A DNA stretch of 64,000 nucleotides. Source: Synechococcus sp. RCC307. Lineage in GTDB: Bacteria > Cyanobacteriota > Cyanobacteriia > PCC-6307 > Cyanobiaceae. Location of the stretch: positions 181,105 to 245,104 of the forward strand of contig CT978603.1 in assembly GCA_000063525.1 (NCBI GenBank). Direction: 5' to 3'. The notes beneath the pieces are model-generated. The model did no database searches and had not been told where the DNA came from. It worked only from the letters and a program-made list of their open reading frames with translations. A program made the translations under genes and the position numbers. Positions within the stretch are counted from its first letter, which is position 1, and the number at the start of each line of letters is the position of its first letter. Shown piece by piece: positions 10,170 to 27,475 of this stretch.

Positions 10170-10888
10170 CCAGCTCTCTTATGATCTCAGTGCCCAAGCC
10201 CATGTGGCTGTGAGTTTTGAAAGCGCGGAGTACATCGCCAATTATGATGCCTTAGGAAGCCTACGGATTCTCGGATCGGTACGGATCCTGTGCCTTACAG
10301 AAAAGACTCGGATCTTTCAGGCCAGCACGAGTTGACTTTTCAACCATGAGAGTCTGCGCAGTGGAGAAACGTTTGTAACCCGCAAGGTCCGCGCGGTTTA
10401 GATCGTGTGGATTCTGGTTTGGAAGACGCCTACATATGGGCAATCTCGACTCCCTGCGCGAATGGGGCCATGCCCGCGATTACGTGGAAATCCAATGACT
10501 GATGTTTCAACTGGAAGTTCTGGAGGATTGCTTCATATCCACCGCTCAGTAGGAGAGTGCCCGCTGCCTCCCTGATCTAACGGCTCTGTAGTTGGGCTGG
10601 GGAAACCACGAATGTGGGGGGAGAAGGTATCGCTTAAGTTGGTCGGTGTAGGTACACGGGCGCCGCATTGATCCCTCTTATTTCCTACCGGTGGAAGCTC
10701 AAACTCTTCTTGGTGATCCAAGCAAAGCTCGTGAAAAGCTAGCCTGGACGCCCACCCCAACGCTTGAAGAGCTGGTCGCAGAAATGGTGGCAGCTGACGG
10801 TGAGGAAGTAAAAAAGGAAGCCTTTCTTAAGCGAAAGAGCTTTTCAGTGGTTGGTTTGATGGAGACAGAATCGACTAACGAATTCTGA
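10170..10888 (+). pseudogene. Broken GDP-mannose 4,6-dehydratase (gmd) copy
   Basis: Fragments align with the intact gmd at 34819-35925. Bases from about 10175 encode [15 protein letters not shown], matching residues from about 90 of the intact protein; the N-terminal part is missing. Around 10333 the copy is 144 bp shorter than the intact gene and runs into TGA (10333-10335). Next come FNHES and GETFVTRK, then an in-frame TAG and shifts through the region matching [16 protein letters not shown]. The C-terminal 60 or so residues are readable again from 10691 (QTLLGDPSKAREKLAWTP) to the stop at 10888. With no start, several stops and a deletion it cannot make a working enzyme. Confidence 0.92.
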
Positions 10889-10912
10889 TAGTTTGAAGAT
10901 TTGAGGTGAGGC

Positions 10913-11143
10913 ATGAGCACATTGACCAAAGCCGATGACCATTTTTTTGTTGCTGGAGCCAGGGGGATGGTTGGAAGCAGTATTTTTCGGGCATTAGAGC
11001 AAAAAGGCTATGGTGACGAAGTCTGTAGTGATGCTTTGTTAAAGCCCACACGTCAAACCCTTGACCGTTTTGATCGCGAAGCTGTTAAGATTTGGTTTAG
11101 AGACAAAAAGCTAACTGTTGGCGTTGGTTATGGTGAGGATTGA
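10913..11143 (+). pseudogene. Truncated GDP-L-fucose synthase (fcl) remnant
   Basis: A 76-codon frame starts at ATG 10913. Its first 60 or so residues match the N terminus of the intact fcl at 35922-36920: FFVAGARGMVGSSIFRALEQ here against [19 protein letters not shown] there. The similarity ends near 11110 and the frame closes at 11143, so the catalytic YxxxK region and the rest of the protein are lost. It sits 24 bp behind the gmd remnant, keeping the gmd-fcl order of the intact pair, and is read in the same direction. Confidence 0.88.
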
Positions 11144-11333
11144 TTGGGATTGTAGTAAGGCGGACGGGCGCCTTAGAAACAACTTGATGTTAGTCGCTTA
11201 CCCGGTATAGGCTGGAAATCTCGAATTTAGCTTTCCAAGGTTGTCCCTGATGCCTATAATGATTATTTAAGCGGCTGAATTCAGAGCTTAGTAGTCAATT
11301 GCCCCCTCCTTGTTATCTCATTTTTCTTGATTC

Positions 11334-13121
11334 GTGACTAGATCTCCTGCCTATGATATTCCTCCAGTTAGGGCTTTACTTCTATCTCTATGGAGCCATT
11401 TAAGCAGAAAGCGCCGTCGCCAAGTCATTGCTCTTGTGGGCGTGATGATAATTAGTGGCTTCGCTGAGCTCATTTCACTAGGCGCAGTCATTCCATTCCT
11501 GGCTGTTTTGACTAATCCAGGTAGCGCCTTTGATCTGCCAATCGTTAGCGCAATCGCCAGCTACTTTGGCTTGACAAGTTCATCCCAGATCATCATCCCA
11601 TTTACTATTTTATTCGCTTTTACCGCAGTCGTCGTTTCGTTAGTTAGATCAGTCAACTTATGGCTAAATGGCCGTTTAGTGGCAGCAGTTGCTACTGACT
11701 TGAGTTGCGAGTCATACAAGAGAACTTTGTTTCAACCTTATAAAGTTCATCTGTTGCGGAATAGTGGTAATGTTATAACAAAAACCACTACTCAGGTCAC
11801 ATATACACTGCAAGCTCTCAGCGCCATGCTGAATATGGGCACCTCTGCAATCGTTGCTGCTTCATTGACTGTTGGGTTGTTGTTGATAAATTTTAAAGTC
11901 GCAATATCAGCATCTCTACTTTTCTCATCGCTTTATTTGATAATTGCTCGTAGAATTCGGCCAATTCTAAGGAAAAATAGTAAAAGAATATCCTCCGCCA
12001 ATGCATCCCAGCTAATTGCTCTACAGGAGGGTTTAGGTGCGATAAGAGACGTTTTGTTGGACGGCTCACAGCCATTTTATCTTAATATTTATACTAAAGC
12101 AGACAAGCCTTTACGCCGTTTGCAGGCACAAAATTTATTCCTAACAAATGTTCCTAAATATTTGCTGGAAGCTTTTGGCTTGGTGATCATTTCTTTATTA
12201 GGTGGGGTATTGGTGATTTATAACGGAAGTCAGTCATCGGTTATTCCATTACTCGGTGCGATGGCCTTAGGTGCTCAGCGTTTACTACCATCCTTGCAAC
12301 AGATTTTTAGAGGTTGGTCTTCTCTTAAAAGTAATCAAGCTGCTATTGCTGCGGTTGTTGAATTGCTAGAGCAGCCACTTCCATCGATATTCGAGGTAAA
12401 CAAAGTACAAAAGCTTAATAAATTTATATGCTGCAAAAATGTAAGTTTTAAATATAATGAAAATCAAAAATTTGTCCTTGAAAATTTAAATCTAGAAATT
12501 CATGCTGGTCAAAAAATCGGACTTATTGGCTCCACCGGCAGCGGCAAATCTACACTAGCCGATTTATTGATGGGCCTTCTGGAACCGTATATGGGTTGCA
12601 TTTTAGTAGATGATATTGATATCAATGATTCTCTGACTCCTGATATATCCCAAGTATGGCGCAATTCTATTGCACATGTACCTCAAGCCATCTACTTGGC
12701 AGATTGCACGATAGCCGAAAATATCGCTTTCGGTATAAGTAGAGAAAATATTGAGATGAGCAGGGTTAAACTAGCTGCCCAAAAGGCCCAGCTATCATCA
12801 TTTATTGATTCATTGCCTGATGGCTACAATACTTTTGTGGGAGAACGAGGAGTCTTGCTGAGTGGAGGTCAAAGGCAAAGGTTGGGTCTAGCAAGAGCTT
12901 TATATAAAAACTCTTCTTTTTTGGTGCTTGATGAAGCTACGAGCGCATTAGATAATACTACTGAGGAAGAGGTCATGAAGTCGATCGATTCTTTGGGTAG
13001 AGATTTAACTGTTTTGATAGTGGCTCATAGAATTAGTACTCTGAAAAATTGTGATCGTGTAATTAAAATTGAAAACGGTAAAATCTGTGCAGACGGTCCT
13101 CCTTCTTTGATTTTAAATTAG
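11334..13121 (+). CDS. ABC transporter with fused permease and ATPase, PglK-like glycan flippase
   Basis: A 595-residue half-exporter starting at GTG 11334. The N-terminal membrane domain (about 1-340) begins with several long hydrophobic helices. The ATPase has Walker A GSTGSGKST, signature LSGGQRQRLG, Walker B FLVLDEATSALD and switch VAHRIST. It is a paralog of the transporter at 353-2197, including the matching RRxQ-VAL entry into helix 1. It heads the plus-strand glycan genes and probably flips a lipid-linked intermediate. It is the first gene of the AT-rich block on this side of the decayed zone. Confidence 0.85.
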   Translation: MTRSPAYDIPPVRALLLSLWSHLSRKRRRQVIALVGVMIISGFAELISLGAVIPFLAVLTNPGSAFDLPIVSAIASYFGLTSSSQIIIPFTILFAFTAVVVSLVRSVNLWLNGRLVAAVATDLSCESYKRTLFQPYKVHLLRNSGNVITKTTTQVTYTLQALSAMLNMGTSAIVAASLTVGLLLINFKVAISASLLFSSLYLIIARRIRPILRKNSKRISSANASQLIALQEGLGAIRDVLLDGSQPFYLNIYTKADKPLRRLQAQNLFLTNVPKYLLEAFGLVIISLLGGVLVIYNGSQSSVIPLLGAMALGAQRLLPSLQQIFRGWSSLKSNQAAIAAVVELLEQPLPSIFEVNKVQKLNKFICCKNVSFKYNENQKFVLENLNLEIHAGQKIGLIGSTGSGKSTLADLLMGLLEPYMGCILVDDIDINDSLTPDISQVWRNSIAHVPQAIYLADCTIAENIAFGISRENIEMSRVKLAAQKAQLSSFIDSLPDGYNTFVGERGVLLSGGQRQRLGLARALYKNSSFLVLDEATSALDNTTEEEVMKSIDSLGRDLTVLIVAHRISTLKNCDRVIKIENGKICADGPPSLILN

Positions 13122-13242: not shown

Positions 13243-14352
13243 ATGAGCAACTTAGATCCTATCTACGTCACTAAGCCTCATCTGCCACCACTAGAGGACT
13301 TCATTCCACTCTTGCAGCAGATCTGGGAGAGACGTATTTTAACTAACAATGGACCCTTTCATCAAGAGCTCGAGGATGCTTTGTGCAAGTACCTAGGTGT
13401 CAAGCATTTATCCCTTTTTTCTAATGGCACAATCGCCCTTGTTACTGCTTTAAAAGCGCTAGGTGTAAGCGGAGAGGTCATCACCACCCCATACTCTTTT
13501 GTCGCTACCGCTCATTCCTTGCTCTGGAATAACATAACACCTGTTTTTGTAGACATTGATCCAGTTACATTTAACCTTGATCCTTCAAAGATTGAGGCGG
13601 CAATTACTGACAAAACAACTGCAATTCTCCCGGTCCATTGTTATGGATTTCCGTGTGATGTTGATGCGATTCAAGAGATAGCAGACAGAAATGGTCTAAA
13701 GGTTATCTATGATGCTGCGCATGCTTTTGGTGTAAACTGTCACTGTGGAAGTGTTTTAAATCATGGGGACCTATCTATACTGAGCTTTCATGCGACAAAG
13801 GTTTTTAATACTTTTGAAGGAGGAGCTATTATATGCCATGACAAAGATACAAAACAAAAAATTGATAAACTAAAAAACTTTGGGTTCGTGGGCGAAACCG
13901 AGGTAGAGGCTACCGGCATCAACGGCAAAATGAATGAATTGCAGGCAGCGATTGGGCTTTTGCAACTACAATCAATAGATGTCGCTATAGATCAGCGCTC
14001 TGTTATTTCTTCCACCTATCGCGAACAGATTGAGAAGATTGAGGGGCTGAGCTGTCCTCCGCCCTCATCTGCTCTCCATTACAACGAAGCATACTTCCCG
14101 ATCTTGGTAAAGCCAGAATATCGTCTTTCCAGAGATGGCCTCTACGAGAAGCTAAGGCAGGCCAACATCTATGCCCGCCGTTATTTCTACCCTTTAATAA
14201 CTGATTTTTCGATGTATCGGCATCTTTTTTCATCATCGCCTGAAAAGTTGCCGATAGCTAATCTTGTCGCGAGCCAGGTGATTTGCCTCCCTATTTATTC
14301 AACCCTTAGTACGGAAGATTTGGATCGAGTCCTGGCAATACTTGCTTATTAA
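13243..14352 (+). CDS. DegT/DnrJ/EryC1/StrS sugar aminotransferase
   Basis: This 369-residue PLP enzyme should transaminate a nucleotide-linked keto sugar. FSNGTIALVTAL binds the cofactor phosphate, D157 in YDAAHAFG contacts the pyridine nitrogen, and K186 in SFHATKVFNTFEGG is the Schiff-base lysine. The overall pattern is closest to my recollection of VioA-type enzymes that make dTDP-4-amino-4,6-dideoxyglucose, but the regiochemistry is not certain. It starts the cassette that continues with an unknown protein, KAS III, ACP and a beta-helix acyltransferase, so the amino group formed here is probably acylated by them. No dTDP-glucose dehydratase is in the window. Confidence 0.88.
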   Translation: MSNLDPIYVTKPHLPPLEDFIPLLQQIWERRILTNNGPFHQELEDALCKYLGVKHLSLFSNGTIALVTALKALGVSGEVITTPYSFVATAHSLLWNNITPVFVDIDPVTFNLDPSKIEAAITDKTTAILPVHCYGFPCDVDAIQEIADRNGLKVIYDAAHAFGVNCHCGSVLNHGDLSILSFHATKVFNTFEGGAIICHDKDTKQKIDKLKNFGFVGETEVEATGINGKMNELQAAIGLLQLQSIDVAIDQRSVISSTYREQIEKIEGLSCPPPSSALHYNEAYFPILVKPEYRLSRDGLYEKLRQANIYARRYFYPLITDFSMYRHLFSSSPEKLPIANLVASQVICLPIYSTLSTEDLDRVLAILAY

Positions 14353-14409
14353 TGCCTGACACTATTCTTTACTTAGAACTCTTCCACATTGTCTTCCGAT
14401 CATCCTTAA

Positions 14410-15021
14410 ATGATTTCTACTTTTACGACAGATTTGCCTTTTAAAGGCAATCGCACTTATTTACAAGGGCCAGACATTGTAAATGCTACTAGTAAGTTCG
14501 CGAAAAAAGTACTTGACGGTAAACTTACACTTATTACATTCAAAAAGCTATGTTTGACCCAGCTTACTTTTTACGTCGCCACTGACAAAAAAAACCTACC
14601 AGAGATTGATTTCAATCTCAATGGAACTATAGTAAGCAAGCTGGGACAAACGTATCATTTTAGCGCCATTGAAAATGGAACGAATACTTATGCTCGTTCC
14701 GTCCCATATGATGAGGCAAAAATTTTACGTAATTCAATCATTGACATAACCTCTCAATCTATAACTCTAGTCGATAGTGACACATCATTCACTTCAATTG
14801 AAAAGATTGTATCGCTTAATAAGCACTTGTGTAATAAGTGTGTTTCAAGTGAGGTAAAATGGCTTTTTTCTCGTTTAAAGTTGGAAAAAACCACATCAGA
14901 TGAGCCTAGCGCAAATCAAATTAGTGTTTCCGTAACACAAGTATTGGCAAAAAGATTTGTCAAATCTGAAATTATTTTGAATGACATAAAATATGGAACC
15001 ATAGAGTTTATCGCTTATTAA
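14410..15021 (+). CDS. Unknown protein of the amino-sugar acylation cassette
   Basis: A 203-residue protein that I do not recognise. It has no signal peptide or membrane helix and contains two Cys in HLCNKCVSSE near residues 140-148. It begins with DLPFKGNRTYLQGPDIVNAT. It lies 57 bp after the aminotransferase and 19 bp before the KAS III gene, so it is likely co-expressed with them and may handle the acyl group or the sugar substrate. A hotdog-type acyl-thioester enzyme is one possibility suggested only by size and context. Composition is AT-rich like its neighbours. Confidence 0.7.
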   Translation: MISTFTTDLPFKGNRTYLQGPDIVNATSKFAKKVLDGKLTLITFKKLCLTQLTFYVATDKKNLPEIDFNLNGTIVSKLGQTYHFSAIENGTNTYARSVPYDEAKILRNSIIDITSQSITLVDSDTSFTSIEKIVSLNKHLCNKCVSSEVKWLFSRLKLEKTTSDEPSANQISVSVTQVLAKRFVKSEIILNDIKYGTIEFIAY

Positions 15022-15040
15022 TTTCCGACTCTTTGACATA

Positions 15041-15997
15041 ATGTTTATTACGGACATCCACTCTTTTATCCCTGGCAATCAAATTGACAATGTTCAATTA
15101 GCCAGTACTTACGGAAAATCAGAAGATTTTGTTCTTTCAAAAATTGGAGCTTTGCGATTGCCTCGCAAGATGCCAAATCAAACTTCTTTATTCTTTGCTA
15201 TAGAGGCAGCACAAAAACTTTTCAAATGCAATTCTTCTATCAAGCCTGAGAATATTGACTGTATTTTAGTTGTTACTCAAAACCCTGGGAATGGAGGCGT
15301 TCCTCATATTTCTCCTCAAATCCAATCAGCACTAAGTATTAGTAATAAATGCCATACCTTTGATATCAGCCTTGCTTGTTCAGGATATCCCTATGCTCTT
15401 AGTATAATTTCCAGTTATATGGCGGCTAACAATCTTTGCAATGGCTTGTTAATTACATCGGACCAATATTCCGATATCTTAGATTCTGATGACAAAAATA
15501 CTTCATTGCTGTTTGGTGATGCATCTGCTGTGACTTTAGTCCAGTCTGAGCCAACAAGTTATTATTCACTCAAGATTAATGATATTTCGGCTTATACCGA
15601 CGGGAACTCACATGACGCAATAGAAATGAGGAACGGCTTATTGTATATGAATGGTAGAAATGTGTTTAACTTTGCCCTTCAGACTGTTCCTCTAGCCATA
15701 AAGAATCATTTGGCAGATCGGGATTTATCGCTTTTAGATATTGATTATGTCATTTGTCATCAAGGAAGTAAAGCTATTGTTGAATCAATAAGAAAAAAAC
15801 TTGAACTATCTGTGGATAAGGTGCCAATTTGCATTGAACAAATTGGCAATACTGTATCATCGTCAATACCGTTAGTTCTTAAAGATAAATTTTTCACGCC
15901 CACTCGTGAGAAGAATTGCAACAGAATTCTTATTTGTGGATTTGGTGTTGGGCTATCAATAGCTACAATGATATTAACAAAAATTTCAAAATGTTAG
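15041..15997 (+). CDS. 3-oxoacyl-ACP synthase III (FabH/KAS III-like)
   Basis: A 318-residue thiolase-fold condensing enzyme with the full KAS III triad by position: C113 in ISLACSGYPYAL, H240 in VICHQGS and N270 in QIGNTVSS. E. coli FabH uses C112, H244 and N274, so spacing is well kept. It would condense a short acyl-CoA with malonyl-ACP to give a 3-oxoacyl-ACP. Its stop overlaps the start of a dedicated ACP gene, and an aminotransferase and an acyltransferase flank the pair. This points to a specialised acyl group for a sugar rather than membrane fatty acid synthesis. No ketoreductase is seen nearby. Confidence 0.88.
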   Translation: MFITDIHSFIPGNQIDNVQLASTYGKSEDFVLSKIGALRLPRKMPNQTSLFFAIEAAQKLFKCNSSIKPENIDCILVVTQNPGNGGVPHISPQIQSALSISNKCHTFDISLACSGYPYALSIISSYMAANNLCNGLLITSDQYSDILDSDDKNTSLLFGDASAVTLVQSEPTSYYSLKINDISAYTDGNSHDAIEMRNGLLYMNGRNVFNFALQTVPLAIKNHLADRDLSLLDIDYVICHQGSKAIVESIRKKLELSVDKVPICIEQIGNTVSSSIPLVLKDKFFTPTREKNCNRILICGFGVGLSIATMILTKISKC

Positions 15998-16215
15998 ATT
16001 CACAACTGTTAGATTGTTTGCGCAATTCCGGTTATGACGAAATTGTTGATATCGATTTTTCAAAAAGTTTCTCTGATAATGGTTTAGATAGCCTTGATGT
16101 ATTTAGTTGGATCTCAGAAGTTGAGTCTGAAACAGGAATATCCATTGAGGATGATGAGCTTCAAGAATTAAAAACTCCTGCTCAACTGCTACATCTCATA
16201 ACTTCTAAACAATAA
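15991..16215 (+). CDS. Dedicated acyl carrier protein
   Basis: A 74-residue acidic helical protein starting at ATG 15991, which overlaps the last codons of the KAS III gene by 7 bp. The phosphopantetheine attachment serine is S34 in NGLDSLDVFSWI. Length and the hydrophobic pattern after the DSL motif fit a stand-alone ACP. It overlaps the following acyltransferase start by one base (TAATG). Translational coupling on both sides suggests it carries the acyl chain from the KAS III enzyme to the acyltransferase. It is distinct from the housekeeping acpP, which is not in this window. Confidence 0.9.
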   Translation: MLDSQLLDCLRNSGYDEIVDIDFSKSFSDNGLDSLDVFSWISEVESETGISIEDDELQELKTPAQLLHLITSKQ

Positions 16216-17159
16216 TGATTCCTTTTAGAGAAAAACGACAGTTCATCAGTGCCGAAAGCAAGACTTTGGACGTGAGGGGAGTTTGTCTCCCATCAGACCT
16301 TTCACCTGGATGCCTTGCTTTTACTAATTCATTTGAGTCGTACCCAATCAAATTTAAAGATACTTATAAAGCTTCTGCTGTTTCATCTATTACTAAGATT
16401 CTAACTACATATATCTTTATTTCAGATAGAGATTTTTCGGAAAATCCAAGCGTCAAAGAAGATTTAAAAGAAAAATGCATAGAGTTAATACCTGTAACCA
16501 ATCCAAGAGATCACTTTATTTTTGCCATTAATTCTAATTCGTATGCAATAGATTTTAAAAGTTTATTAGGTAAAAATCCTTCGATTCACTCGTCTGCACA
16601 CATCCATCCTTCAGCTTTTATTTCAGAAAATGTATATATCGATTCTGGCGTCACCGTTGGCCCAGGCTGTGTCATTGGTGAAGGAACTTATATTGGTAAG
16701 AATACAATTATCCAATCTAATTGTACGATTGGCTGTGATGGGATTAATGCATATAATTCCTCGATAACAAATAAACTGACCATGATGCCTCATTTCTCTG
16801 GTGTGTTTATTGGTGAAAATGTTTATATTGGCTCAGGCTCGACAATCAATCGTGGCGTTTTTAATATGACTATGATTTCAAATCATTGCATTCTTGGATC
16901 TAATGTACTTATTGGCCATAATGCTTCCCTTGATAATAAAGTATGGTTGTCTTCAGGAGTTCTCGTTGGAGGTGGCTCGCATTTATCTGAATGTACAAAG
17001 ATAGGATTAGGTGCAATCATTAGGGATAATCTAAGTATTGGCTCAAATGTAAATGTAGGAATGGGATCAGTAGTATATAAAAATGTACTTGCGAATAGAT
17101 CATTGATCGGAAACCCGGCACGGATCACTCCAAAACTGAGTGCAGGGCCAGATTTTTAA
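16215..17159 (+). CDS. Left-handed beta-helix (hexapeptide) acyltransferase, LpxD-like
   Basis: A 314-residue protein. The first 125 or so residues form an N-terminal domain of unclear type, and the rest is hexapeptide repeats such as IHPSAFISENVYI, VTVGPGCVIGEGTYIG and HCILGSNVLIGHNASL, ending in GNPARI. This is the left-handed parallel beta-helix of LpxA/LpxD/PglD-type transferases; IGHNAS supplies the usual catalytic histidine. The N-terminal extension plus helix layout resembles LpxD, which uses acyl-ACP to N-acylate an amino sugar. Directly following an ACP gene, it is likely to transfer the ACP-bound acyl group onto the amino sugar made by the aminotransferase. Confidence 0.85.
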   Translation: MIPFREKRQFISAESKTLDVRGVCLPSDLSPGCLAFTNSFESYPIKFKDTYKASAVSSITKILTTYIFISDRDFSENPSVKEDLKEKCIELIPVTNPRDHFIFAINSNSYAIDFKSLLGKNPSIHSSAHIHPSAFISENVYIDSGVTVGPGCVIGEGTYIGKNTIIQSNCTIGCDGINAYNSSITNKLTMMPHFSGVFIGENVYIGSGSTINRGVFNMTMISNHCILGSNVLIGHNASLDNKVWLSSGVLVGGGSHLSECTKIGLGAIIRDNLSIGSNVNVGMGSVVYKNVLANRSLIGNPARITPKLSAGPDF

Positions 17160-18240: not shown

Positions 18241-18999
18241 ATGTTTAAAAAAATTTCTAGCCGGGTTTTCCGCAATCGTAATTCCCATTCTGCATTTCTA
18301 GACGTAAGGCTCAAGCACTGTCAATATTTGACCCATTCAAAAATATTTGTAGTTGGAAATAACAAAACTGGAACAACTTCGCTTGAGCACTTTTTTAAGA
18401 AGCTTGGTTTTTTATGTCTACCCCAACAAATCCCCGAATCTTTATATTTTGAGAATAGACACAATACAAGTGCATTACTTGGCAAATTGAATCCCTATAT
18501 CCGCTCGTTTGAAGTCTTTCAAGATTTACCCTTCTCAGAGACCTCTATTCTTGATGAACTAGTTCGTAGCTGGCCGCATGAAAAATATATTTATACGATG
18601 CGATCGAAAGTATCTTGGTACAATTCTCTCCTCAATCACCATTCCCAAACCGCTGGTTTCCAAATTGACAAATCAAAAAAAATATTCTCAATCGTCGACA
18701 CTCAGTCTGCTGTTAAATCCTTGAAGAAGTGGTCATATGGAGGACAAAATATGTATGAACATATTATAGACAGGTATTCAATTCCTTCAAGTCTGTCGGT
18801 TTATGACTTTGAATGTCTAATAAGTTATCATATGAAGCATGAGCATACTTCCCAACGTCTTCTGGCTGGTAGAGATACCCTTTTTGTAGATATCACAACA
18901 GACCCGAATGCATCTAAAAAGATTTGTGAATATATAGGTCTTCCTTTTGTTGTAGAACTGCCTATAAAAAATAAGCGCAATAATAAATCCTTGCCTTGA
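18241..18999 (+). CDS. Sulfotransferase-like protein (1 of 5)
   Basis: A 252-residue protein with the phosphosulfate-binding loop in FVVGNNKTGTTSLEHFF (about residues 36-52), the P-loop-like signature of PAPS-dependent sulfotransferases. YTMRSKVSWYNSLLNHH near residue 120 is placed where the 3'-phosphate binding RxxxxxxS motif is expected. No signal peptide is seen. It would move sulfate from PAPS to a hydroxyl or amino group of a glycan. Four other sulfotransferase-like genes follow within 8 kb, each with a different sequence. Confidence 0.8.
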   Translation: MFKKISSRVFRNRNSHSAFLDVRLKHCQYLTHSKIFVVGNNKTGTTSLEHFFKKLGFLCLPQQIPESLYFENRHNTSALLGKLNPYIRSFEVFQDLPFSETSILDELVRSWPHEKYIYTMRSKVSWYNSLLNHHSQTAGFQIDKSKKIFSIVDTQSAVKSLKKWSYGGQNMYEHIIDRYSIPSSLSVYDFECLISYHMKHEHTSQRLLAGRDTLFVDITTDPNASKKICEYIGLPFVVELPIKNKRNNKSLP

Positions 19000-19280: not shown

Positions 19281-19982
19281 ATGGCTGGCATTCGCTTAAA
19301 GCTAAAGCGCTTATTTCTTGACGAAATTAATTCACATTTAAATCCTCAAATACCACCTATTCTTATAGCTTCTATGGGGAGATCTGGTTCTACTTTGTTA
19401 TTCGATGCAGTCGCAGAAGCTCTTATAAGTACAAGAAATCTACTCATACCTCGCGCATTTGCTAAAGCACTCATTCGTCGTGGAGGAGCATGGAATCTTC
19501 GCACAATCAGATTCTTTCCAGGTGTCGTCTACAAGACCCATGGTTTTCCTGATCATTTACCAGAAAATTTCACCGGTAAAATTATTTTTATTTATGGTGA
19601 TCCAATCGACGCTGCCTTGTCTATTATTAACTGTAGAGATAAGCTTGGTGAGATGTGGTTTTCCTCTCATTTAACTCATTTATTTGCCAAGGAATCTTTT
19701 TTGTCTGATGATAATGATCCATTTCAGTTTTCCCGTCAAATACAAAGTTGGATGAATTATCAAGGTAGTCCTGTATTGGTCCTGCGTTATGAAACATTAT
19801 GGGATTACACAAATAAAATTTCCGAATTCTTAGGTTTTAATATTAGTCTTCCCCCACGCAAGGCGCGTTCAAATATCTCAGAGTCAGAGCTAGATGTTGC
19901 CAGATATATTGATGCATATACACCTCTTCGAGCGCAAATGCTTGACCTTCCAGACGTTTATATTTATACGCCCTTGCAATGA
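19281..19982 (+). CDS. Sulfotransferase-like protein (2 of 5)
   Basis: A 233-residue protein. LIASMGRSGSTLLFDAVAEAL (near residues 29-49) carries the 5'-phosphosulfate loop. IYGDPIDAALSIINCRDK near residue 100 replaces the usual RDP with GDP in the 3'-phosphate region, which may weaken PAPS binding or indicate a divergent family. LVLRYETLWD near residue 165 is a common sulfotransferase C-terminal element. Its stop overlaps the next gene's ATG (ATGA). Probably cytosolic and acting on the polysaccharide precursor. Confidence 0.75.
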   Translation: MAGIRLKLKRLFLDEINSHLNPQIPPILIASMGRSGSTLLFDAVAEALISTRNLLIPRAFAKALIRRGGAWNLRTIRFFPGVVYKTHGFPDHLPENFTGKIIFIYGDPIDAALSIINCRDKLGEMWFSSHLTHLFAKESFLSDDNDPFQFSRQIQSWMNYQGSPVLVLRYETLWDYTNKISEFLGFNISLPPRKARSNISESELDVARYIDAYTPLRAQMLDLPDVYIYTPLQ

Positions 19983-20812
19983 ATATATTTTCATCACTGT
20001 TGCTTTTTGCTTATTTATTTCTTCCGAACTCACCTACACAATCGGTTTCCTCAACTCCTCCAGTAAAGTTTGGGATATGGGGTGTAGATAAGATTAGCCC
20101 CTCTAAAGAAAAGGATTTATTTTGTCAATTGAAAAAAGATAATTTTGACTTTATTCAGTCATACTCTTCTTTCAAGACTCATAGCTTTAAACGTTTAGAG
20201 GGTTTATTGGAAAATATTCAAGAATGTCGTATTAATGCCATCTTAGCCATCCAACCTTTTAGGAAGAATATTTTAGTGAACCCTGTTTTTAATTCAAAAC
20301 TGCAATTACTATCGCTCTATTCTCGCAATGTCCTTGTTCAAATTGCAGATGAACCTCGCAGCAAAAATCAAGTGAGATTCCTTCCGAAAATCTGTCGGCA
20401 TATAGAGAAATTTTCCCTTGATGCTCATTTGCAAGAAGGTGTCAATCCGACAATTCTACAGTGTGTTACTCAAAATGGCTTGCATTCACACCGCAAGCGG
20501 CCCAATATTAACCCTAGTCTCAAACAAATAGCTCTAAATTCACACAAACTGAGAAGGAGCCGAAAAGATATTGTTTACACGATGCGAATGTTTAATTCTG
20601 AGAATCAAAACAACTTCGTTAATGTTACTTATGAGGACGCAAAGAACGAGCTTTGCTATGTTCTTCAAAACATCAAGCCTAATAAGATTGCTTTTTATAC
20701 CTATAATAAGCGCTATAAAGGTGCAGGCATGATGCAAGATCCAGGCCTTTATAAAATAGCCACTCAGCTTGTGCTAAAATATAAAAATAACAAACTTATT
20801 TGCCAGAAATGA
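19979..20812 (+). CDS. Secreted protein of unknown function, possible TIM-barrel hydrolase-like fold
   Basis: A 277-residue protein with a signal-peptide-like N terminus (short start, hydrophobic LLLFAYLFLP, then polar residues). The mature part opens with VKFGIWGVDKISPSKEKD. It contains FDFIQSYSSF, INAILAIQPF and VLVQIADEPRS, an alternation of short hydrophobic strands and helices reminiscent of glycoside-hydrolase barrels in which a strand-end acid follows such an ADEP segment. I do not recognise the family. It overlaps sulfotransferases on both sides (ATGA junctions), so it is translated with them and may process or bind the sulfated glycan outside the membrane. Confidence 0.65.
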   Translation: MNIFSSLLLFAYLFLPNSPTQSVSSTPPVKFGIWGVDKISPSKEKDLFCQLKKDNFDFIQSYSSFKTHSFKRLEGLLENIQECRINAILAIQPFRKNILVNPVFNSKLQLLSLYSRNVLVQIADEPRSKNQVRFLPKICRHIEKFSLDAHLQEGVNPTILQCVTQNGLHSHRKRPNINPSLKQIALNSHKLRRSRKDIVYTMRMFNSENQNNFVNVTYEDAKNELCYVLQNIKPNKIAFYTYNKRYKGAGMMQDPGLYKIATQLVLKYKNNKLICQK

Positions 20813-21513
20813 TTGTTTTACAGCATTTAAGTATTGTTTTTGTTCATATACCAAAAAACGCTGGTTCTTACGTCAAGAGATCCCTTAAGTCAAATAATAA
20901 TGTTCTACGTAACCAGTTCTTTTTGGGTTTATGTTCCTCTTCTTTATCTCGCATTCAGGCGAACATCTTCAATACGCCCTCCTCGTTCACGCTGATCCAA
21001 AAGAAGGATCCCTATTCGCAGCTTAGAGCTGTTAACAGAGCTAAAAATGGACACGCGTCTTCTTCAGATTTCATACTTTATACACCTATTGTGAAACCCC
21101 AAACCTATTTGTTTGTATGGCGTGACCCGATTGCCCGCCTAGTTTCCTTTTATAATTTTGTACGTTCAAAGCCCCGGCACTATTTGTATCAATACTCGAT
21201 TCAAAGTAAAAACATATTTACCTTTTATAATCAAATGTACTCTTGTTTTGGGAGAATTAAACTCGAGTCACAATATTCAATGATCAAAGGTGCACTTAAT
21301 TCTCCTTCTTCGAAGCTTATTGCGTTGCGTCAACATTCGCTTTCCACTGATTTGTATAAGCTTCATCTTTTATACCCTGACCTACAAGTAAACTTACCTA
21401 CCAATGAAGTTAATCAGTCGCCAGTGAATACTCCTTACACGTCTGACATAGGCAATATAGGGGACTTTTGCCCAGAAGATATGCTTTTTGATCCTTCTCC
21501 CTATTATATTTAA
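20809..21513 (+). CDS. Sulfotransferase-like protein (3 of 5)
   Basis: A 234-residue protein. SIVFVHIPKNAGSYVKRSL near the N terminus is the Sulfotransfer_2-type loop (FVHIPKxAG). FVWRDPIARLVSFYNFVRS near residue 105 is a clean 3'-phosphate motif with Arg and Ser in place. The frame stays open to a TTG at 20800, but ATG 20809 makes an ATGA overlap with the previous stop and puts the loop at the usual distance from the start. Short for the family, lacking a long C-terminal tail. Of the five, this is among the most convincing by motif. Confidence 0.85.
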   Translation: MIVLQHLSIVFVHIPKNAGSYVKRSLKSNNNVLRNQFFLGLCSSSLSRIQANIFNTPSSFTLIQKKDPYSQLRAVNRAKNGHASSSDFILYTPIVKPQTYLFVWRDPIARLVSFYNFVRSKPRHYLYQYSIQSKNIFTFYNQMYSCFGRIKLESQYSMIKGALNSPSSKLIALRQHSLSTDLYKLHLLYPDLQVNLPTNEVNQSPVNTPYTSDIGNIGDFCPEDMLFDPSPYYI

Positions 21514-21515
21514 AT

Positions 21516-22784
21516 ATGTTAGTTCTATTTACTTTGTGCCTGTTTCAAGCTACTAGGTGGTTTGGCATTGAGAGAAGTATATTCTACATTTTAACATGCA
21601 TTCTTTTAGCACTTTTGATCGGCTTAATAGGTAAATATTCCATCACCAAACAGTCTACCCTGGCATTCTTATTAATTGCAACCTTTTCTTTGCCTGCAAT
21701 TATTAATTTTGCTCTTATACCAACTGTAAGTCTTTCACAGGCCCTTTTACCCTTTGTCGGCTTTCTTAAAGTCTTTCTACTTCTTCTTCTTCTTTCTAGC
21801 TTGCCTTTAACTACATCAATAAATTTTATCCACAGATTCATGCTATTCGCAACCTCATATGGATTTTTGCAGTGGATTATTTCATCACTTGGTTTCGCAC
21901 AAAGGGCGAGTTTGATCGATTCGCATTATGAAATAGTTGGGTTTTTCCCTATCTGGCGAGTGAATTCACTGTGGGGTGAAAGTCAGCATTTTTCCCAAGT
22001 ACTCGTCTTTTATCTTTTATTTTGCTTCGTCGAGAGTTCTCTTTTAAACCCCACCGAAAATATATCAAGAAAATTTGGCATTTATCTCTCCCTTTTTATG
22101 TTGGCAACAAGTGGCAGTACAACAGGTTATTTCTTAAGTCTTTTTGTCATTACTTCTCATCTTATCTTGTCTTTGACTAAACCTTTTTTGAGCAACTTAC
22201 CCTTAAGTTACTCTTCACTCCACTCCCCACTGACATCATTAAAAAAGATTTTCCATTTCATCCTTCGAAAGCAATATTTCTTTTTGTTATTGACAGTTTT
22301 TTTTGCTTTTACTGTATTTGTGTCCACTTCTGATGCTCTTCTTCGTCAGTTTGCAAAGCAATCTAGTAGAGCGAGTCTAGTTGCTTCTTTTATATTGGAT
22401 ACAAATAATCTATCAACTGGTTCTAGTGGCTGGGACTCTGGTACTCGTGCTCAATCTTTAATTCGCGCCAAAGATTATTTATCGAATCCTTCTAAGCTTC
22501 CACAATATTCTCCTGAGCTTGCCACAAAATCCAAAGATGGGTTTTTACTTAACTTTGTCAGGTTTGGATTTATTGGTTCTTTCATGGTTACTATCTCACT
22601 TTTAATAGTATGTTATATATATAATTTTGACCCTTTAATGTCGTTGGGATTCCTCGCTTTAGTCTTAATATTTTGGTTTCGCGGTGAAACAATTAATGCT
22701 ACATCTTTTCAATTTGGCTTGGTTCTCTCTCTTTTCATGCTCTCATTCAAATATGGCAATTCTCGTGTTCCAGCTAGAAACTAA
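21516..22784 (+). CDS. Wzy-like polysaccharide polymerase / O-antigen ligase family membrane protein
   Basis: A 422-residue, very hydrophobic protein with about ten predicted membrane helices and a larger loop between about residues 275 and 345 (containing SSGWDSGTRAQSLIRA). That layout, many helices plus one large late periplasmic loop, fits Wzy/WaaL-type proteins, whose sequence is otherwise poorly conserved. The SxxxDSGTRxxSxxxA pattern in the loop resembles the Arg-bearing loop of O-antigen polymerases. It would join lipid-linked repeat units on the periplasmic side. It starts 2 bases after the preceding sulfotransferase stop. Confidence 0.78.
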   Translation: MLVLFTLCLFQATRWFGIERSIFYILTCILLALLIGLIGKYSITKQSTLAFLLIATFSLPAIINFALIPTVSLSQALLPFVGFLKVFLLLLLLSSLPLTTSINFIHRFMLFATSYGFLQWIISSLGFAQRASLIDSHYEIVGFFPIWRVNSLWGESQHFSQVLVFYLLFCFVESSLLNPTENISRKFGIYLSLFMLATSGSTTGYFLSLFVITSHLILSLTKPFLSNLPLSYSSLHSPLTSLKKIFHFILRKQYFFLLLTVFFAFTVFVSTSDALLRQFAKQSSRASLVASFILDTNNLSTGSSGWDSGTRAQSLIRAKDYLSNPSKLPQYSPELATKSKDGFLLNFVRFGFIGSFMVTISLLIVCYIYNFDPLMSLGFLALVLIFWFRGETINATSFQFGLVLSLFMLSFKYGNSRVPARN

Positions 22785-22787
22785 TTT

Positions 22788-23735
22788 ATGACCGTTTCAT
22801 TAATCACTGGCTGTCATCGTTCTGGGTCCACATGGCTTGGTAAAACTATTTGTTATGCTTCAAACTCTATCTACTTTTGGGAGCCTTTCAATTTAAACTC
22901 GCCTCAATTGTATAAATCTTTAATCTCTAGTTCCTTGAACAATAACAAATATTGGTATCCTTTCCTTCCATCTACTCATCAATTTTGGCCTGATTTGATT
23001 CGTGTTTGCAGCAAGCGTCGTCTTTTGTATTCTAATATCTCCTTTTCTGATTTTTTTGCTGATAGTCCAAAGCGTACTCTTTTTGCGCTTAAAAAAGCTG
23101 TGGCGCTGCAGTTTTCTTTGCTCACTGGTGGAAATATTGTTATTAAAGATCCTTTGATGCTATTTTCAGTTGAACCTGCGCTTGAGTCATCTGCTGTAGA
23201 TAACGTTGTAATTTTAACTCGAGACCCTAGAGCCTTCTACACCAGCGTGAAAAAAGCAAATTGGGCTTTTGATTTTTCACACCTTCTTCCTGTTACAAGC
23301 ACTTATCCACATTTATTTAAGTATCACAACTTAGTGACTCACAAGTCAATTCAGGGTTCGTTACTTGATCTCGAATCTGTCTCCCTGCTTTGGAACATCT
23401 TGCATGAGCATATTTTGTATCTCTCCAATTTATCCCTAGTGACATTATTTAAATACGAAGACATTTGTGCTGATCCCGAATCTTTTTTCCCTTCTATCGC
23501 ACAGTCGCTTTTTGGAAACGATTTCACTTTTAATCAAGAAGCATTCTCAGCGTATCTTCTAGGCTTGAAGGATCAGCCCTCCACTCCTGAAGATAAAAAG
23601 GGAGTGCAAATGGTTAGACGTGGTGAGTCCAAGGCTATTTCTAAGCTTTGGCTTAATCGTATTTCGGAAACTGAATCACTCTCGATATATAATAGCTGCC
23701 ATAAGTTGATGAACTTTTTTGGCTATAGTCGATGA
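22788..23735 (+). CDS. Sulfotransferase-like protein (4 of 5)
   Basis: A 315-residue protein, the longest of the five. LITGCHRSGSTWLGKTI at residues 5-21 is the 5'-phosphosulfate loop, followed by YFWEPFN, common in glycan sulfotransferases. VILTRDPRAFYTSVKKA near residue 145 is the 3'-phosphate motif with RDP and Ser. LVTLFKYEDICADPESFFP is the usual C-terminal RYEDL-like element. All the landmark motifs of a PAPS-dependent carbohydrate sulfotransferase are present. ATGA overlap with the next gene. Confidence 0.88.
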   Translation: MTVSLITGCHRSGSTWLGKTICYASNSIYFWEPFNLNSPQLYKSLISSSLNNNKYWYPFLPSTHQFWPDLIRVCSKRRLLYSNISFSDFFADSPKRTLFALKKAVALQFSLLTGGNIVIKDPLMLFSVEPALESSAVDNVVILTRDPRAFYTSVKKANWAFDFSHLLPVTSTYPHLFKYHNLVTHKSIQGSLLDLESVSLLWNILHEHILYLSNLSLVTLFKYEDICADPESFFPSIAQSLFGNDFTFNQEAFSAYLLGLKDQPSTPEDKKGVQMVRRGESKAISKLWLNRISETESLSIYNSCHKLMNFFGYSR

Positions 23736-24499
23736 CAGCTACCCTTTTTCTTTGTTGTCCATCTTTGAGCTTCTCAGGGAGCACAGCTCGTACAGCTAAT
23801 TCATTTAACCGTCTAAAAAACCTTCTTAGTGTGTTTGATATTTCAGTCAAAACACTCTTTCTTTCTTCTGATCAGAATGATCTTGCTTCTGCTGAGGCGC
23901 ACTCATACTTCGACTATATATTTTTTTCTCCATGTGAAGGAGTTTATGCAGCTTTCAATGCAGCCATCAAAAAATCCCTCAGTCTTTCTGCTGATTGGAT
24001 ATGGCTTTTGGGAGAAGGAGATACAATTTTATGTGAACGTCTAGACTTGTCTATTTTGTCCCAAAATCTTTCCTTGGGATCGCATATATTGATGATGAAC
24101 ATGTTCGTGGGTGATAGAAAACTAAGGTGCAAACTAAAAGAAGCTTTCCCATCTCCGTTGTTTAGTCTTGATACAATGAGATTTAACCATCCTGCATCTA
24201 TTATTTCTGCAAATGCTTATTCTATCAATGGCTTGTACTCACTTGATTATAAGGTTGTCTCTGACTATTATTGGTTGCACAAGGCTTGTGCTGCCAATCT
24301 ATCGATTACCCATTTGCCTTTTGTATCCGTCTACCATGAATTAGGTGGCATTTCTACCTCCTCAGGTAAATCGCGTTTTTTCGAGCATTATCAATGTTTG
24401 CTTGCTTTAAACAGAGTATATGGTTTTTCCTTTTCTGTTTTCTTTGCGCTCATTTTTCGTTTAACAAGGTGTCTTGTTTCTAGTTTTTTCGCTAAATGA
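23732..24499 (+). CDS. Glycosyltransferase family 2, WcaE-like
   Basis: A 255-residue protein. SPCEGVYAAFNAAIKKSLS near residue 70 followed by WIWLLGEGD parallels the (K/E)G(I/V)YDAMNKGI...LNAGD signature of WcaE/colanic-type GT2 enzymes; GEGD would be the metal-binding position. The N-terminal strand is atypical (MTATLFLCCPSLSFSGS), with no obvious VxxPxYN start. The gene overlaps both neighbours by 4 bp. Rich in Ser, Phe and Leu like the rest of this T-rich sub-block. Confidence 0.75.
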   Translation: MTATLFLCCPSLSFSGSTARTANSFNRLKNLLSVFDISVKTLFLSSDQNDLASAEAHSYFDYIFFSPCEGVYAAFNAAIKKSLSLSADWIWLLGEGDTILCERLDLSILSQNLSLGSHILMMNMFVGDRKLRCKLKEAFPSPLFSLDTMRFNHPASIISANAYSINGLYSLDYKVVSDYYWLHKACAANLSITHLPFVSVYHELGGISTSSGKSRFFEHYQCLLALNRVYGFSFSVFFALIFRLTRCLVSSFFAK

Positions 24500-25566
24500 C
24501 TAAATATTCATTTGTTATCCTGACATGTTCTTCCCCATGGCATGGGCGAGGTGGCGCCTCACGTGTCATATCTTCTTATATAGATTTTTATACTCGAAAA
24601 AAAGTGCCTCTGAAGATATGTTTGTTCCATTTTATGCATAAATATCGCCTTTTTCGCGTACTACCTTCTCTCAAATCATTATTTTATGCCTTAACCCTGC
24701 TATTTTGTAGGCAGCCCTATGCCATACATCATCATCATACTTCTTTGTATGATCTAGGATTTTTGTTCTTATTTAAACTATTTTCCTTTTCTGGCCGCGA
24801 CCGTATTGCTATAACCTTACACAATCCTAAACATTTTGTTGAATCGTCTTCCTTGTTTAGAACTTTTCATTTTTCTCTTGTTAGGTTTTGTGCCAAGCAC
24901 TTACATTTTTTAAATTCTCAAGATCAGTCAACCTTTACCCGTAATCACTTCCTTTGTCTTCCCATTTTCGATTGTGTTTCAGTTGTAAGCTCCAATCCTC
25001 TTTCTAATCGCTCTTTAATTGAGCTTCGTCTGTTACTGGATTCCGACACATATTGTTTGACGGATGCTGACATTTATCTCGGTGTCATGGCTGTTTTGAG
25101 GCCTGGCAAGAGAATTGACTTGTGTATTAAAGCTCTAGTCCAATTGCCACCAACCTTTAAACTCTTGATTGCGGGAGAAGGCTCCGACATGCAAATTCTT
25201 ATTAAATTAGTCCAATCGTTAAATCTCAGCGATAGAGTTCAATTTTTGGGGTGGCTTGACGACGACCAAAAGCCTTGCTTTTTTAGTCAAGTTGATCTTT
25301 TCCTTAATGCTTCTCAATTTGACACTCAATCACTTGTTTTTCTTGAGTCATTGACTCACTCGACTCCTGTCATATCCGTGCCAAATCCCATTTTCTTGGA
25401 AATATATCCTCCTTCCCCGTGTATTTATTACTCCTCTGCTTTTACCGTTGAGGCTTTTTCTAAGGCTGTCCAATCTGCGGCTCATTCGGTCTTTAGTTTT
25501 TCGCAAACAGCAAATACACTTCTGGAGCGAGATTCTGTTAAGGTTTTCCCATTTCCTTGTCGTTAG
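24496..25566 (+). CDS. Glycosyltransferase family 4
   Basis: A 356-residue GT-B protein. The N terminus has HGRGGASRVISSYIDFY, a glycine-rich acceptor loop. The C-terminal domain has VMAVLRPGKRIDLCIKAL, then LLIAGEGSDMQILIKLV, FLGWLDD and a final FDTQSLVFLESLTHSTPVIS segment in which FDTQSLVFLE stands for the E-x7-E motif with one Glu replaced. That change leaves some doubt about the catalytic details. It likely extends the glycan repeat unit. Confidence 0.82.
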   Translation: MTKYSFVILTCSSPWHGRGGASRVISSYIDFYTRKKVPLKICLFHFMHKYRLFRVLPSLKSLFYALTLLFCRQPYAIHHHHTSLYDLGFLFLFKLFSFSGRDRIAITLHNPKHFVESSSLFRTFHFSLVRFCAKHLHFLNSQDQSTFTRNHFLCLPIFDCVSVVSSNPLSNRSLIELRLLLDSDTYCLTDADIYLGVMAVLRPGKRIDLCIKALVQLPPTFKLLIAGEGSDMQILIKLVQSLNLSDRVQFLGWLDDDQKPCFFSQVDLFLNASQFDTQSLVFLESLTHSTPVISVPNPIFLEIYPPSPCIYYSSAFTVEAFSKAVQSAAHSVFSFSQTANTLLERDSVKVFPFPCR

Positions 25567-25569
25567 GTT

Positions 25570-26268
25570 GTGGCTTTTGCTAGGCGTTCATCTCTGATCA
25601 CCTCTGTCAAGCTTCTGGATAGAATTAATGCGTCTATTTCTTATCCTAATCTTCTGAAGCTTGATGAGTCCAGGGCGATTGTGGATATCCCCAAGTCTGG
25701 TTCAAGTTTTCTGAAATCATTTCTCATATCCTCGGGTCAAGCTCGCATTTCCATATCACCTGATCTCCCACATACTGCTGTCTTCTCCAGAATACCTCGA
25801 CTGACATTTTTGAGTGCTTTTTCAATTCATGCTTTTTTGAGAGACCCTATCGAAAGATTTTGTTCTGTTGTGCGCGAGAAAATTGTCTTTAACTCCCATT
25901 ATCGTTCTGGTTGGTCTCCTTACCTTCTGTCTTTTGGTAAAAATGTTTACTCTTTGAATGACGTTGACAAAATGATATCGGACTTTGTGAATGCCCCCCT
26001 TTCAGTACTTGATAAGCACATCCGACCCCAATCATTTTTTCTTGCACCCTATTTTTCTTCCTCTCGATTTTCTCTAGCCAATTCCTCCTCTATTCGTCCA
26101 TTTTTGATTGACTGCGGCTTCAAGCCTGACACCTTTGCTTCTGAGGCAGTTTCTCTGGTCACTGATCGTACATTATTTCAACCTACTGATTTGTCTTTAA
26201 AGTCCCTTGACCTGTTAAGGCTTTTTTACCGTTCTGATTACGAACTTATGGATATAATCGGTTTTTAG
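25570..26268 (+). CDS. Sulfotransferase-like protein (5 of 5)
   Basis: A 232-residue protein starting at GTG 25570, 3 bases after the previous stop. AIVDIPKSGSSFLKSFLIS (about residues 36-54) is the phosphosulfate loop (PKSGSS), and AFLRDPIERFCSVVREK near residue 95 is the 3'-phosphate motif with RDP and Ser. IRPQSFFLAPY near residue 155 matches the HxxPQ region of Sulfotransfer_2 proteins. Start choice is uncertain because no ATG lies near; TTG 25568 is out of frame. Confidence 0.8.
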   Translation: MAFARRSSLITSVKLLDRINASISYPNLLKLDESRAIVDIPKSGSSFLKSFLISSGQARISISPDLPHTAVFSRIPRLTFLSAFSIHAFLRDPIERFCSVVREKIVFNSHYRSGWSPYLLSFGKNVYSLNDVDKMISDFVNAPLSVLDKHIRPQSFFLAPYFSSSRFSLANSSSIRPFLIDCGFKPDTFASEAVSLVTDRTLFQPTDLSLKSLDLLRLFYRSDYELMDIIGF

Positions 26269-26278
26269 CCAAATTTTG

Positions 26279-27475
26279 ATGAAGGTCCTGGTCCTTGGTG
26301 GTGACGGCTTTTGCGGCTGGCCATGCGCCGTGAATTTGGCCGATCAGGGCCACGACGTTCTGATCGTTGACAACCTCAGCCGCCGCAAGATCGACATCGA
26401 TCTGGAGGTGGAATCCCTAACCCCAATCACCAACATTGGTGAGCGCCTCAAGGCCTGGAGTGAGATCGGCGGCAAACCGATGCGCTTTGTCCACCTGGAC
26501 ATCGCCCATGAGTACCAGCGGCTCCTGGATCTGCTTCTCGAGGAGAAGCCCGACTCGGTGGTGCATTTCGCCGAGCAACGCGCTGCCCCCTATTCGATGA
26601 AGAGCAGCGCCACCAAGCGCTACACCGTCGATAACAACGTCAACGGCACCCACAACCTGCTGGCCGCCATCGTTGAAAGTGGCCTCGATATTCACGTGGT
26701 GCACCTCGGCACCATGGGGGTCTACGGCTATGGCTCCCACCGCGGCGCCACCATCCCCGAGGGCTACCTGAAGGTGGAAGTGCCACAGCCCGATGGCAGC
26801 CGTTTTGAGGAGGAGATCCTCCACCCCGCCAGCCCGGGCAGCGTCTATCACATGACCAAGACGCTGGATCAGCTGCTCTTCCTCTACTACAACAAAAACG
26901 ATCAGGTCCGCATCACCGATCTGCACCAGGGCATCGTTTGGGGCACCAACACTGAAGCCACCGACCGCGATCCACGCTTGACCAATCGCTTTGATTACGA
27001 CGGCGACTACGGCACGGTCTTGAACCGCTTCTTGATGCAGGCGGCCATTGGCTACCCCCTGACCGTGCATGGCACCGGCGGCCAGACCCGCGCCTTCATC
27101 CACATCCGCGACTCGGTGCGCTGCGTGCAGCTGGCCTTGGACAACCCTCCGGTCAAAGGCGAGCGGGTCAAGATCTTCAACCAGATGACCGAAAGCCATC
27201 AGGTGGGAGAACTGGCCAAGAAGGTGGCCGCACTTACCGGCGCGCAGGTCAACAACCTGCCCAATCCCCGCAATGAAGCGGTGGAAAACGATCTGATCGT
27301 GGACAACCGCTGCTTCATTGAGCTGGGCCTCAATCCCACAACCCTCGATGATGGGTTGCTGAAGGAAGTGGTGGAGATCGCCACCCGTTATGCCGACCGC
27401 TGCGACCGCAACCGGATCCTCTGCACGTCTGCCTGGACCAAAACCCAAGAACAGGCCATTCGTGCAGGCTCATGA
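26279..27475 (+). CDS. sqdB: UDP-sulfoquinovose synthase
   Basis: A 398-residue enzyme that combines UDP-glucose and sulfite into UDP-sulfoquinovose, the head-group donor of the thylakoid lipid SQDG. Diagnostic parts are VLGGDGFCGWPCAVNL (NAD fold), GTMGVYGYG, YHMTKTLDQLLF (the YxxxK pair) and TDLHQGIVWG. ATG 26279 starts the protein at the family's usual MKVLVLGGDG. The gene is clearly GC-rich while both neighbours are AT-rich, so its codon use belongs to the chromosome backbone. The usual partner sqdX is not found in this window. A long open frame on the opposite strand is a by-product of its GC3 bias. Confidence 0.96.
   Translation: MKVLVLGGDGFCGWPCAVNLADQGHDVLIVDNLSRRKIDIDLEVESLTPITNIGERLKAWSEIGGKPMRFVHLDIAHEYQRLLDLLLEEKPDSVVHFAEQRAAPYSMKSSATKRYTVDNNVNGTHNLLAAIVESGLDIHVVHLGTMGVYGYGSHRGATIPEGYLKVEVPQPDGSRFEEEILHPASPGSVYHMTKTLDQLLFLYYNKNDQVRITDLHQGIVWGTNTEATDRDPRLTNRFDYDGDYGTVLNRFLMQAAIGYPLTVHGTGGQTRAFIHIRDSVRCVQLALDNPPVKGERVKIFNQMTESHQVGELAKKVAALTGAQVNNLPNPRNEAVENDLIVDNRCFIELGLNPTTLDDGLLKEVVEIATRYADRCDRNRILCTSAWTKTQEQAIRAGS

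Follow-up and report, generated by a model that had tools for sequence, protein, structure and literature searches.

The Psl cluster of Pseudomonas aeruginosa encodes PslG, a hydrolytic protein with two catalytic Glu (E165 and E276) which we take to be a member of GH39. It offers an analogue, already studied, for glycosidases encoded inside polysaccharide operons: less Psl is made when PslG is lost, and the catalytic residues are important (PMC9075953). The reason why polysaccharide clusters carry glycosidase genes at all is called elusive (PMC9075953). Among cyanobacteria, the xss (synechan) cluster of Synechocystis 6803 resembles our locus in combining a sulfated polysaccharide with sulfotransferases, glycosyltransferases and Wzx/Wzy; it differs in that the main text of its description contains no 'glycosidase' and 'hydrolase' only once (PMC8205485). 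The genetics of sulfated surface polymers in marine cyanobacteria is little explored.

Here we describe a stretch of 64,000 nucleotides (the window), covering positions 181105-245104 of the single-contig genome of Synechococcus sp. RCC307 (2,224,914 bases; described as a complete genome of 2.22 Mbp with 60.8% GC, PMC2441476). Between approximately 12 and 26 kb the window contains a low-GC island (about 34-40% GC, against 55-68% past 33 kb). We focus on the gene at 19979-20812 and read its product, with a probability of roughly one half, as an exported (periplasmic or inner-membrane-facing) barrel of the (beta/alpha)8 type, similar to glycoside hydrolases (GH), that probably handles the glycan of a sulfated-polymer cluster in a non-classical manner. 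The genes relevant to this reading are:

11334-13121, + strand: protein of ABC exporter/flippase type, most similar in NCBIfam to PglK (290 bits, short of the cut-off of 1000)
18241-18999, + strand: sulfotransferase (PF17784)
19281-19982, + strand: upstream sulfotransferase, 4-bp overlap with 19979-20812 (PF00685, 23.4 bits, cut-off 22)
19979-20812, + strand: the gene studied, putative GH-like barrel protein of 277 aa, presumed exported, orphan by ordinary searches
20809-21513, + strand: downstream sulfotransferase, 4-bp overlap with 19979-20812 (PF03567, 30.7 bits, cut-off 22)
21516-22784, + strand: multi-pass membrane protein that resembles Wzy polymerases in topology and position alone (no Pfam match)
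22788-23735, + strand: sulfotransferase-like protein (PF13469/PF00685, below cut-off)
24496-25566, + strand: glycosyltransferase (PF00534)
25570-26268, + strand: sulfotransferase (PF03567)

Since the island combines five sulfotransferase-like genes (four above a Pfam cut-off) with glycosyltransferases, a PglK-like exporter and a Wzy-type membrane protein, it very probably directs the synthesis of a sulfated glycan for the cell surface, by analogy with the synechan cluster (PMC8205485); in relation to xss, the island is distinguished by its five sulfotransferase-like genes together with the PglK-like ABC exporter. Within the family of the window (Cyanobiaceae), PF03567 sulfotransferase genes are found in 51 of 201 genomes searched. 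At E 1e-5, the own genome is the sole match for the sulfotransferase at 20809-21513 (300 genomes of the family) and for the sulfotransferase-like gene at 22788-23735 (400 genomes), and these two parts of the island are, judged by sequence at that search depth, private to RCC307. Of the island genes in the genomes covered by the paper that describes RCC307, 60-78% have no assignable function, with glycosyltransferases and glycoside hydrolases predominating in the remainder (PMC2441476).

Elsewhere in the island, at 13243-17159, four consecutive genes possibly form a route to an unusual acyl-amino sugar: they encode a DegT aminotransferase, a 203-aa protein without a Pfam match, an enzyme similar to KAS III and an acyltransferase of the left-handed beta-helix type. 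The NAD-epimerase-type gene at 26276-27475 has 60% GC and is flanked on both sides by low-GC genes; the N-terminus of its product presumably resembles SqdB. Two divergent polysaccharide blocks are separated by about 2 kb (9374-11333) in which no ORF of at least 100 aa is present except the end of 9278-9583. Elsewhere in the genome a second sulfotransferase locus (C1:563000-582000) contains a Sulfotransfer_2 match at C1:570487-571164, inside a 1069-aa open frame, and a further sulfotransferase match at 573786-574058.

The ORF at 19979-20812 (35.5% GC) has ATG 19979 as its sole start candidate, given that no ATG, GTG or TTG lies between this codon and the in-frame TGA at 19943-19945. Its start shares the ATGA at 19979-19982 with the end of the upstream sulfotransferase gene, and the downstream sulfotransferase can start either at ATG 20809 (a 4-bp overlap, again ATGA) or at TTG 20800 (a 13-bp overlap). 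At 288 codons, the frame without stops surpasses those of all 200 island copies simulated with a second-order Markov model (mean 136, maximum 262). An earlier note on this DNA had claimed overlaps with sulfotransferase genes on both sides; these are present, at 4 bp each with ATGA, and 19979-20812 is confirmed as a real gene that is tightly linked to its sulfotransferase neighbours.

By ordinary sequence searches, the 277-aa protein is an orphan. No family was matched in Pfam, NCBIfam or PHROGs (best PHROG E 0.018, function unknown), and no relative was obtained among PDB sequences (best E 0.87), viral contigs and phages, plasmids (one match at E 0.3), 300 genomes of the family of the window, or two scans of the genomes of 84,980 species using exact 8-mer seeds. 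Apart from the protein itself, its own genome yielded one match at E 0.0054, which contains stops, and six genomes of the genus yielded one at E 0.07. Matches in 13 other genomes among 386 of the phylum (E 0.001-0.1) are at chance level, 6 of the 13 having internal stops, and no ORF in 40 picocyanobacterial sulfotransferase neighbourhoods (two from the own genome) matches the protein at E 1. Regarding individual chance-level matches, L004 and L006 were rejected on reading frames unlike the 277-aa protein, and the reading frame of L003 looks to us like an M16-type peptidase.

Glycosidase-like barrels show a pattern of D-E-P at strand 4, Q-x-F at strand 7 and YTY at strand 8. A probe sequence was written from this pattern, with the 277-aa protein in view, and recovered real 'hypothetical proteins' encoded on Deinococcus plasmids, of which four matched along 95-99% of the probe. 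Against 194 genomes it gave two matches, namely one cyanobacterial gene (L089) and the 277-aa protein itself (E 1.3e-5); the latter was discarded as evidence because the probe had been designed with that protein in view. Searching with the real gene L089 then identified relatives in 5 further genomes of 99, four close (L093-L096) and one divergent (L097). The resulting family has 12 members: L089 and L093-L096 from filamentous cyanobacteria (a lineage that we infer), six from Deinococcus plasmids (L085-L088, L103 and L104), and L097. The gene of this last, divergent relative (L102 8183-9328) bears a DEP motif.

These genes are placed in polysaccharide clusters. In all five close cyanobacterial loci (L091, L098, L099, L100 and L101) the barrel gene adjoins a gene for a multi-pass membrane protein (7-10 predicted segments), and four of the five neighbourhoods also have a protein of 10-11 segments placed like a flippase, the fifth being a 5.7-kb contig. 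A Pfam scan of 39 of the 53 neighbouring ORFs, five loci pooled, returned Wzy_C (5), Polysacc_synt (flippase; 4) and Glycos_transf_1 (14), with no sulfotransferase among the 25 families listed of 38. The Deinococcus genes lie near genes for glycosyltransferases, LCP proteins, flippases or sugar transferases.

Compared with PDB sequences, the family profile matches the catalytic barrel of GH158 (E 4.5e-6) and the barrels of beta-glucuronidases (GH2, best E 2.5e-4), and its C-terminal part matches sucrose isomerases (E 1.1e-3); the match to GH42 (E 0.29) is below significance. In whole-protein Pfam scans of 10 of the 12 members only L097 exceeded a cut-off (PF02836, GH2 barrel, 21.6 against 21 bits). 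No match was found in viral scans with the members or their alignment, nor with the family profile in 111 genomes of the family of the window. As predicted from these sequences, the barrel family is exported, spread over two phyla and uncatalogued, in that close members have no Pfam match above cut-off.

Whether the 277-aa protein belongs here was assessed by full-length profile alignment in several variants (two profiles; three profiles; five profiles with two gap settings; six profiles), with control 'proteins' that are not annotated genes but open frames of the fetched stretches, chosen as the longest that do not overlap and with a minimum length of 235 aa (270 in the first test). With the five close members (L089, L093-L096), the 277-aa protein outscores all 800 shuffles and all 664 control ORFs (z 4.8 and 4.9). 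Leaving out L089, which had been picked by the probe, strengthens the signal, at 0 of 500 shuffles and 0 of 664 ORFs (1506 windows; z 5.5 and 5.1), and a profile of L094-L096 likewise gives zero for both the shuffles and the 664 ORFs. Single-member profiles let through 0-2 of 664 ORFs and 0-5 of 500 shuffles, and the 12-member profile 2 of 664 ORFs plus 2 of 800 shuffles under the first gap setting (1 and 1 under the second). In the tests with two and with three profiles the counts are as follows: with two profiles, 0 of 400 shuffles, 0 of 312 control ORFs and 1 of 40 rotated copies reach the protein, and with three profiles it is reached among 287 ORFs by 2 (all twelve members), 5 (without L097) or 0 (six cyanobacterial members). 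No signal is obtained with the six Deinococcus members alone (450 of 664 ORFs reach the protein under the first gap setting, 393 under the second) or with L097 alone (171 and 110 of 664).

Local methods do not establish the relationship. A local HMM comparison with the family scores 0.8 bits, which is not significant, as 59 of 849 other reported sequences are higher (1000 shuffles and 35 window genes submitted); hhalign gives p 0.063 against the family and p 0.13 against the first four Deinococcus members, the latter at the IAFYTY strand; BLASTP against L089 returns only short chance pieces, the best being IAFYTY; and the family profile A3 misses the protein in its own genome at E 0.01. Two local HMM alignments are in register near both ends of the barrel. 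Full-length alignment, which exploits colinearity along the entire barrel, does give a signal for the cyanobacterial branch. Identity to the five close cyanobacterial members amounts to 17-22% over 213-218 aligned pairs. Family and protein share an N-terminal hydrophobic segment, a barrel region of about 245 residues aligned along its full length, the YTY of strand 8 and a genomic setting among polysaccharide genes, with a polymerase-like membrane protein encoded nearby. In our locus this membrane protein is the Wzy-like one at 21516-22784, one gene away, which has no Pfam match and gives p 0.17 with hhalign against the five neighbour proteins. Nonetheless, the 277-aa protein differs in being strongly basic, in lying among sulfotransferases and in missing the C-terminal domain (about 100 aa after the barrel in the family), given that it ends 4 residues past the aligned barrel; it also has ADEP in place of the family's ADD and keeps neither of the motifs QSYP and ANLQ. 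Weighing these alignments, we consider it likely, though well short of certain, that the protein is remotely but truly related to the cyanobacterial branch of the family. Its parts are placed on the window as follows:

19979-20053, + strand: residues 1-25, N-terminus resembling a signal peptide, with a hydrophobic core and a polar c-region but no K/R
20054-20797, + strand: residues 26-273, covered by the full-length alignment to the Wzy-adjacent barrel family of cyanobacteria
20345-20356, + strand: residues 123-126, ADEP; alignment by way of the family's ADD suggests that D124-E125 correspond to the N-E pair (acid/base) found in GH158 and GH2
20579-20581, + strand: T201, where a weak alignment (E 0.29) places the nucleophile Glu of GH42; 10 of the 12 family members have Asn here
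20687-20704, + strand: residues 237-242, IAFYTY, comparable to the family's last barrel strand GILYYTY

Structure prediction was uninformative. Two single-sequence AlphaFold models of the 277-aa protein have pLDDT 35.2 and 40.0, both unreliable and too poor to show a fold. In the second, low-confidence model (mature protein) strands and helices alternate; with this model, Foldseek found no match at E <= 0.001 in PDB or BFVD, VIA-align gave no Z of 5 or more, and no TIM-barrel chain was recognised in the 50 matches listed per fold search, which at this model quality does not inform on the fold. The barrel-like rhythm described in the earlier note is weakly visible in the protein alone (strand/helix alternation z 1.84 against 60 shuffles, second highest of 29 window proteins scored). 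A GH-like barrel is supported indirectly, by the full-length alignment to a family that matches GH158, GH2 and, weakly, GH42.

The N-terminus of the protein is signal-like, with a hydrophobic segment (MNIFSSLLLFAYLFL) followed by a polar stretch rich in Ser, Pro and Thr, but a positive n-region is missing, the first K/R being residue 30. Export as proposed in the earlier note is plausible from the hydrophobic core and polar stretch, and is weakened by the lack of K/R before that residue. It might be argued that the hydrophobic N-terminus is not a cleaved signal peptide and that the gene encodes an orphan that stays in the cytoplasm or is anchored in the membrane, such as a modifying enzyme working with the two sulfotransferases. 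The absence of K/R from the first 29 residues, overlapping partners that are presumably cytoplasmic sulfotransferases and the six Cys of the protein would suit this; the order of a hydrophobic core and then a Ser/Pro/Thr-rich stretch before the barrel region, on the other hand, resembles the layout of the exported family, and we regard such an orphan as improbable.

The protein is much more basic than the family barrels. Its mature part contains 41 K/R against 19 D/E (net +22 in 252 residues), compared with -8 to +10 for the 12 family barrels, and in a comparison of 30 window proteins it is the most basic per residue. Among 690 control ORFs, 15 are at least as basic. Together with the five sulfotransferase-like genes of the island, these values could also be explained by a structural or binding protein without barrel homology, which would hold the sulfated polyanion electrostatically. 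In that case the full-length similarity to the barrel family would be due to chance; moreover, low-GC DNA favours Lys codons and so raises the charge without selection. Overall, a binder of this kind is distinctly unlikely.

If the protein is indeed a barrel, its active site would depart from that of the clan GH-A-type enzymes GH158, GH2 (beta-glucuronidase) and GH42. The family's ADD aligns with the N-E pair of GH158 and GH2, and since ADEP takes its place in the 277-aa protein, E125 may be the acid/base. In the family this column is Asp in 11 of 12 members. The residue that we take to be the nucleophile Glu of GH42 falls on the Asn of the family's ANLQ (weakly, at E 0.29), the column being Asn in 10 members, Ser in 1 and Val in 1, and on T201 in the 277-aa protein. 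Given this Thr, the standard retaining pair looks incomplete. Accordingly, likeness to these enzymes consists of the barrel matches of the family profile and the Glu kept at the acid/base place; the nucleophile Glu is found in neither the protein nor the family, and the protein itself has no direct match to them.

The earlier note had suggested that the protein could trim, bind or desulfate the polymer. An active hydrolase could trim or clear periplasmic polymer, serving a housekeeping role like PslG, AlgL or PelA and using E125 and a second carboxylate such as E208, just after strand 7. In its favour, E125 lies in ADEP where clan GH-A enzymes keep their acid/base, and hydrolases inside polysaccharide operons are known, with catalytic residues that matter for Psl production in the case of PslG (PMC9075953). 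However, the Thr at the (weakly aligned) nucleophile column and the Asp that replaces the acid/base Glu in nearly the whole family make the group unlike standard retaining enzymes, so that classical cutting is unlikely; trimming is weakened and binding becomes at least as likely. Desulfation is unsupported: the sulfotransferase neighbourhood alone would suggest a sulfatase, the protein has neither a C/S-x-P-x-R sulfatase motif nor a family match of any kind, and we give that role almost no credence.

Returning to the non-classical glycan handler, the 277-aa protein would be a shortened, very basic, distant relative of a family encoded beside Wzy-like membrane proteins. PAPS-dependent sulfotransferases act inside the cell; those of the island would sulfate the lipid-linked or nascent glycan in the cytoplasm, after which a flippase would move it outward and the Wzy-like polymerase would join the units outside. 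The barrel protein would encounter the chain, by then sulfated, on the outside of the inner membrane and beside the polymerase. With a Glu at the acid/base place, apparently no nucleophile Glu and a net charge of +22, it would more likely bind, guide, release or otherwise process the polyanionic chain non-classically than perform standard retaining cleavage. Tight translational coupling may match its synthesis to that of the sulfotransferases that make the glycan it would handle.

Should membership of the barrel family hold, the protein would be a candidate for the outside half of a sulfated-polymer machine, and an uncatalogued family would be tied to polymerase-like genes in two phyla. As a more tentative and rather doubtful extension, the family might represent an unnamed class of exported pseudo-glycosidase barrels that, rather than cutting the chain, hold or thread it at the polymerase as it grows; the form in RCC307 would then have become strongly basic to deal with a heavily sulfated polymer. 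As a minor observation on the Deinococcus side, plasmid pDEIPR03 of Deinococcus proteolyticus (L104 1-1875) carries two pieces annotated as Cas7 that are separated by a transposase gene of IS982 (382-1167).
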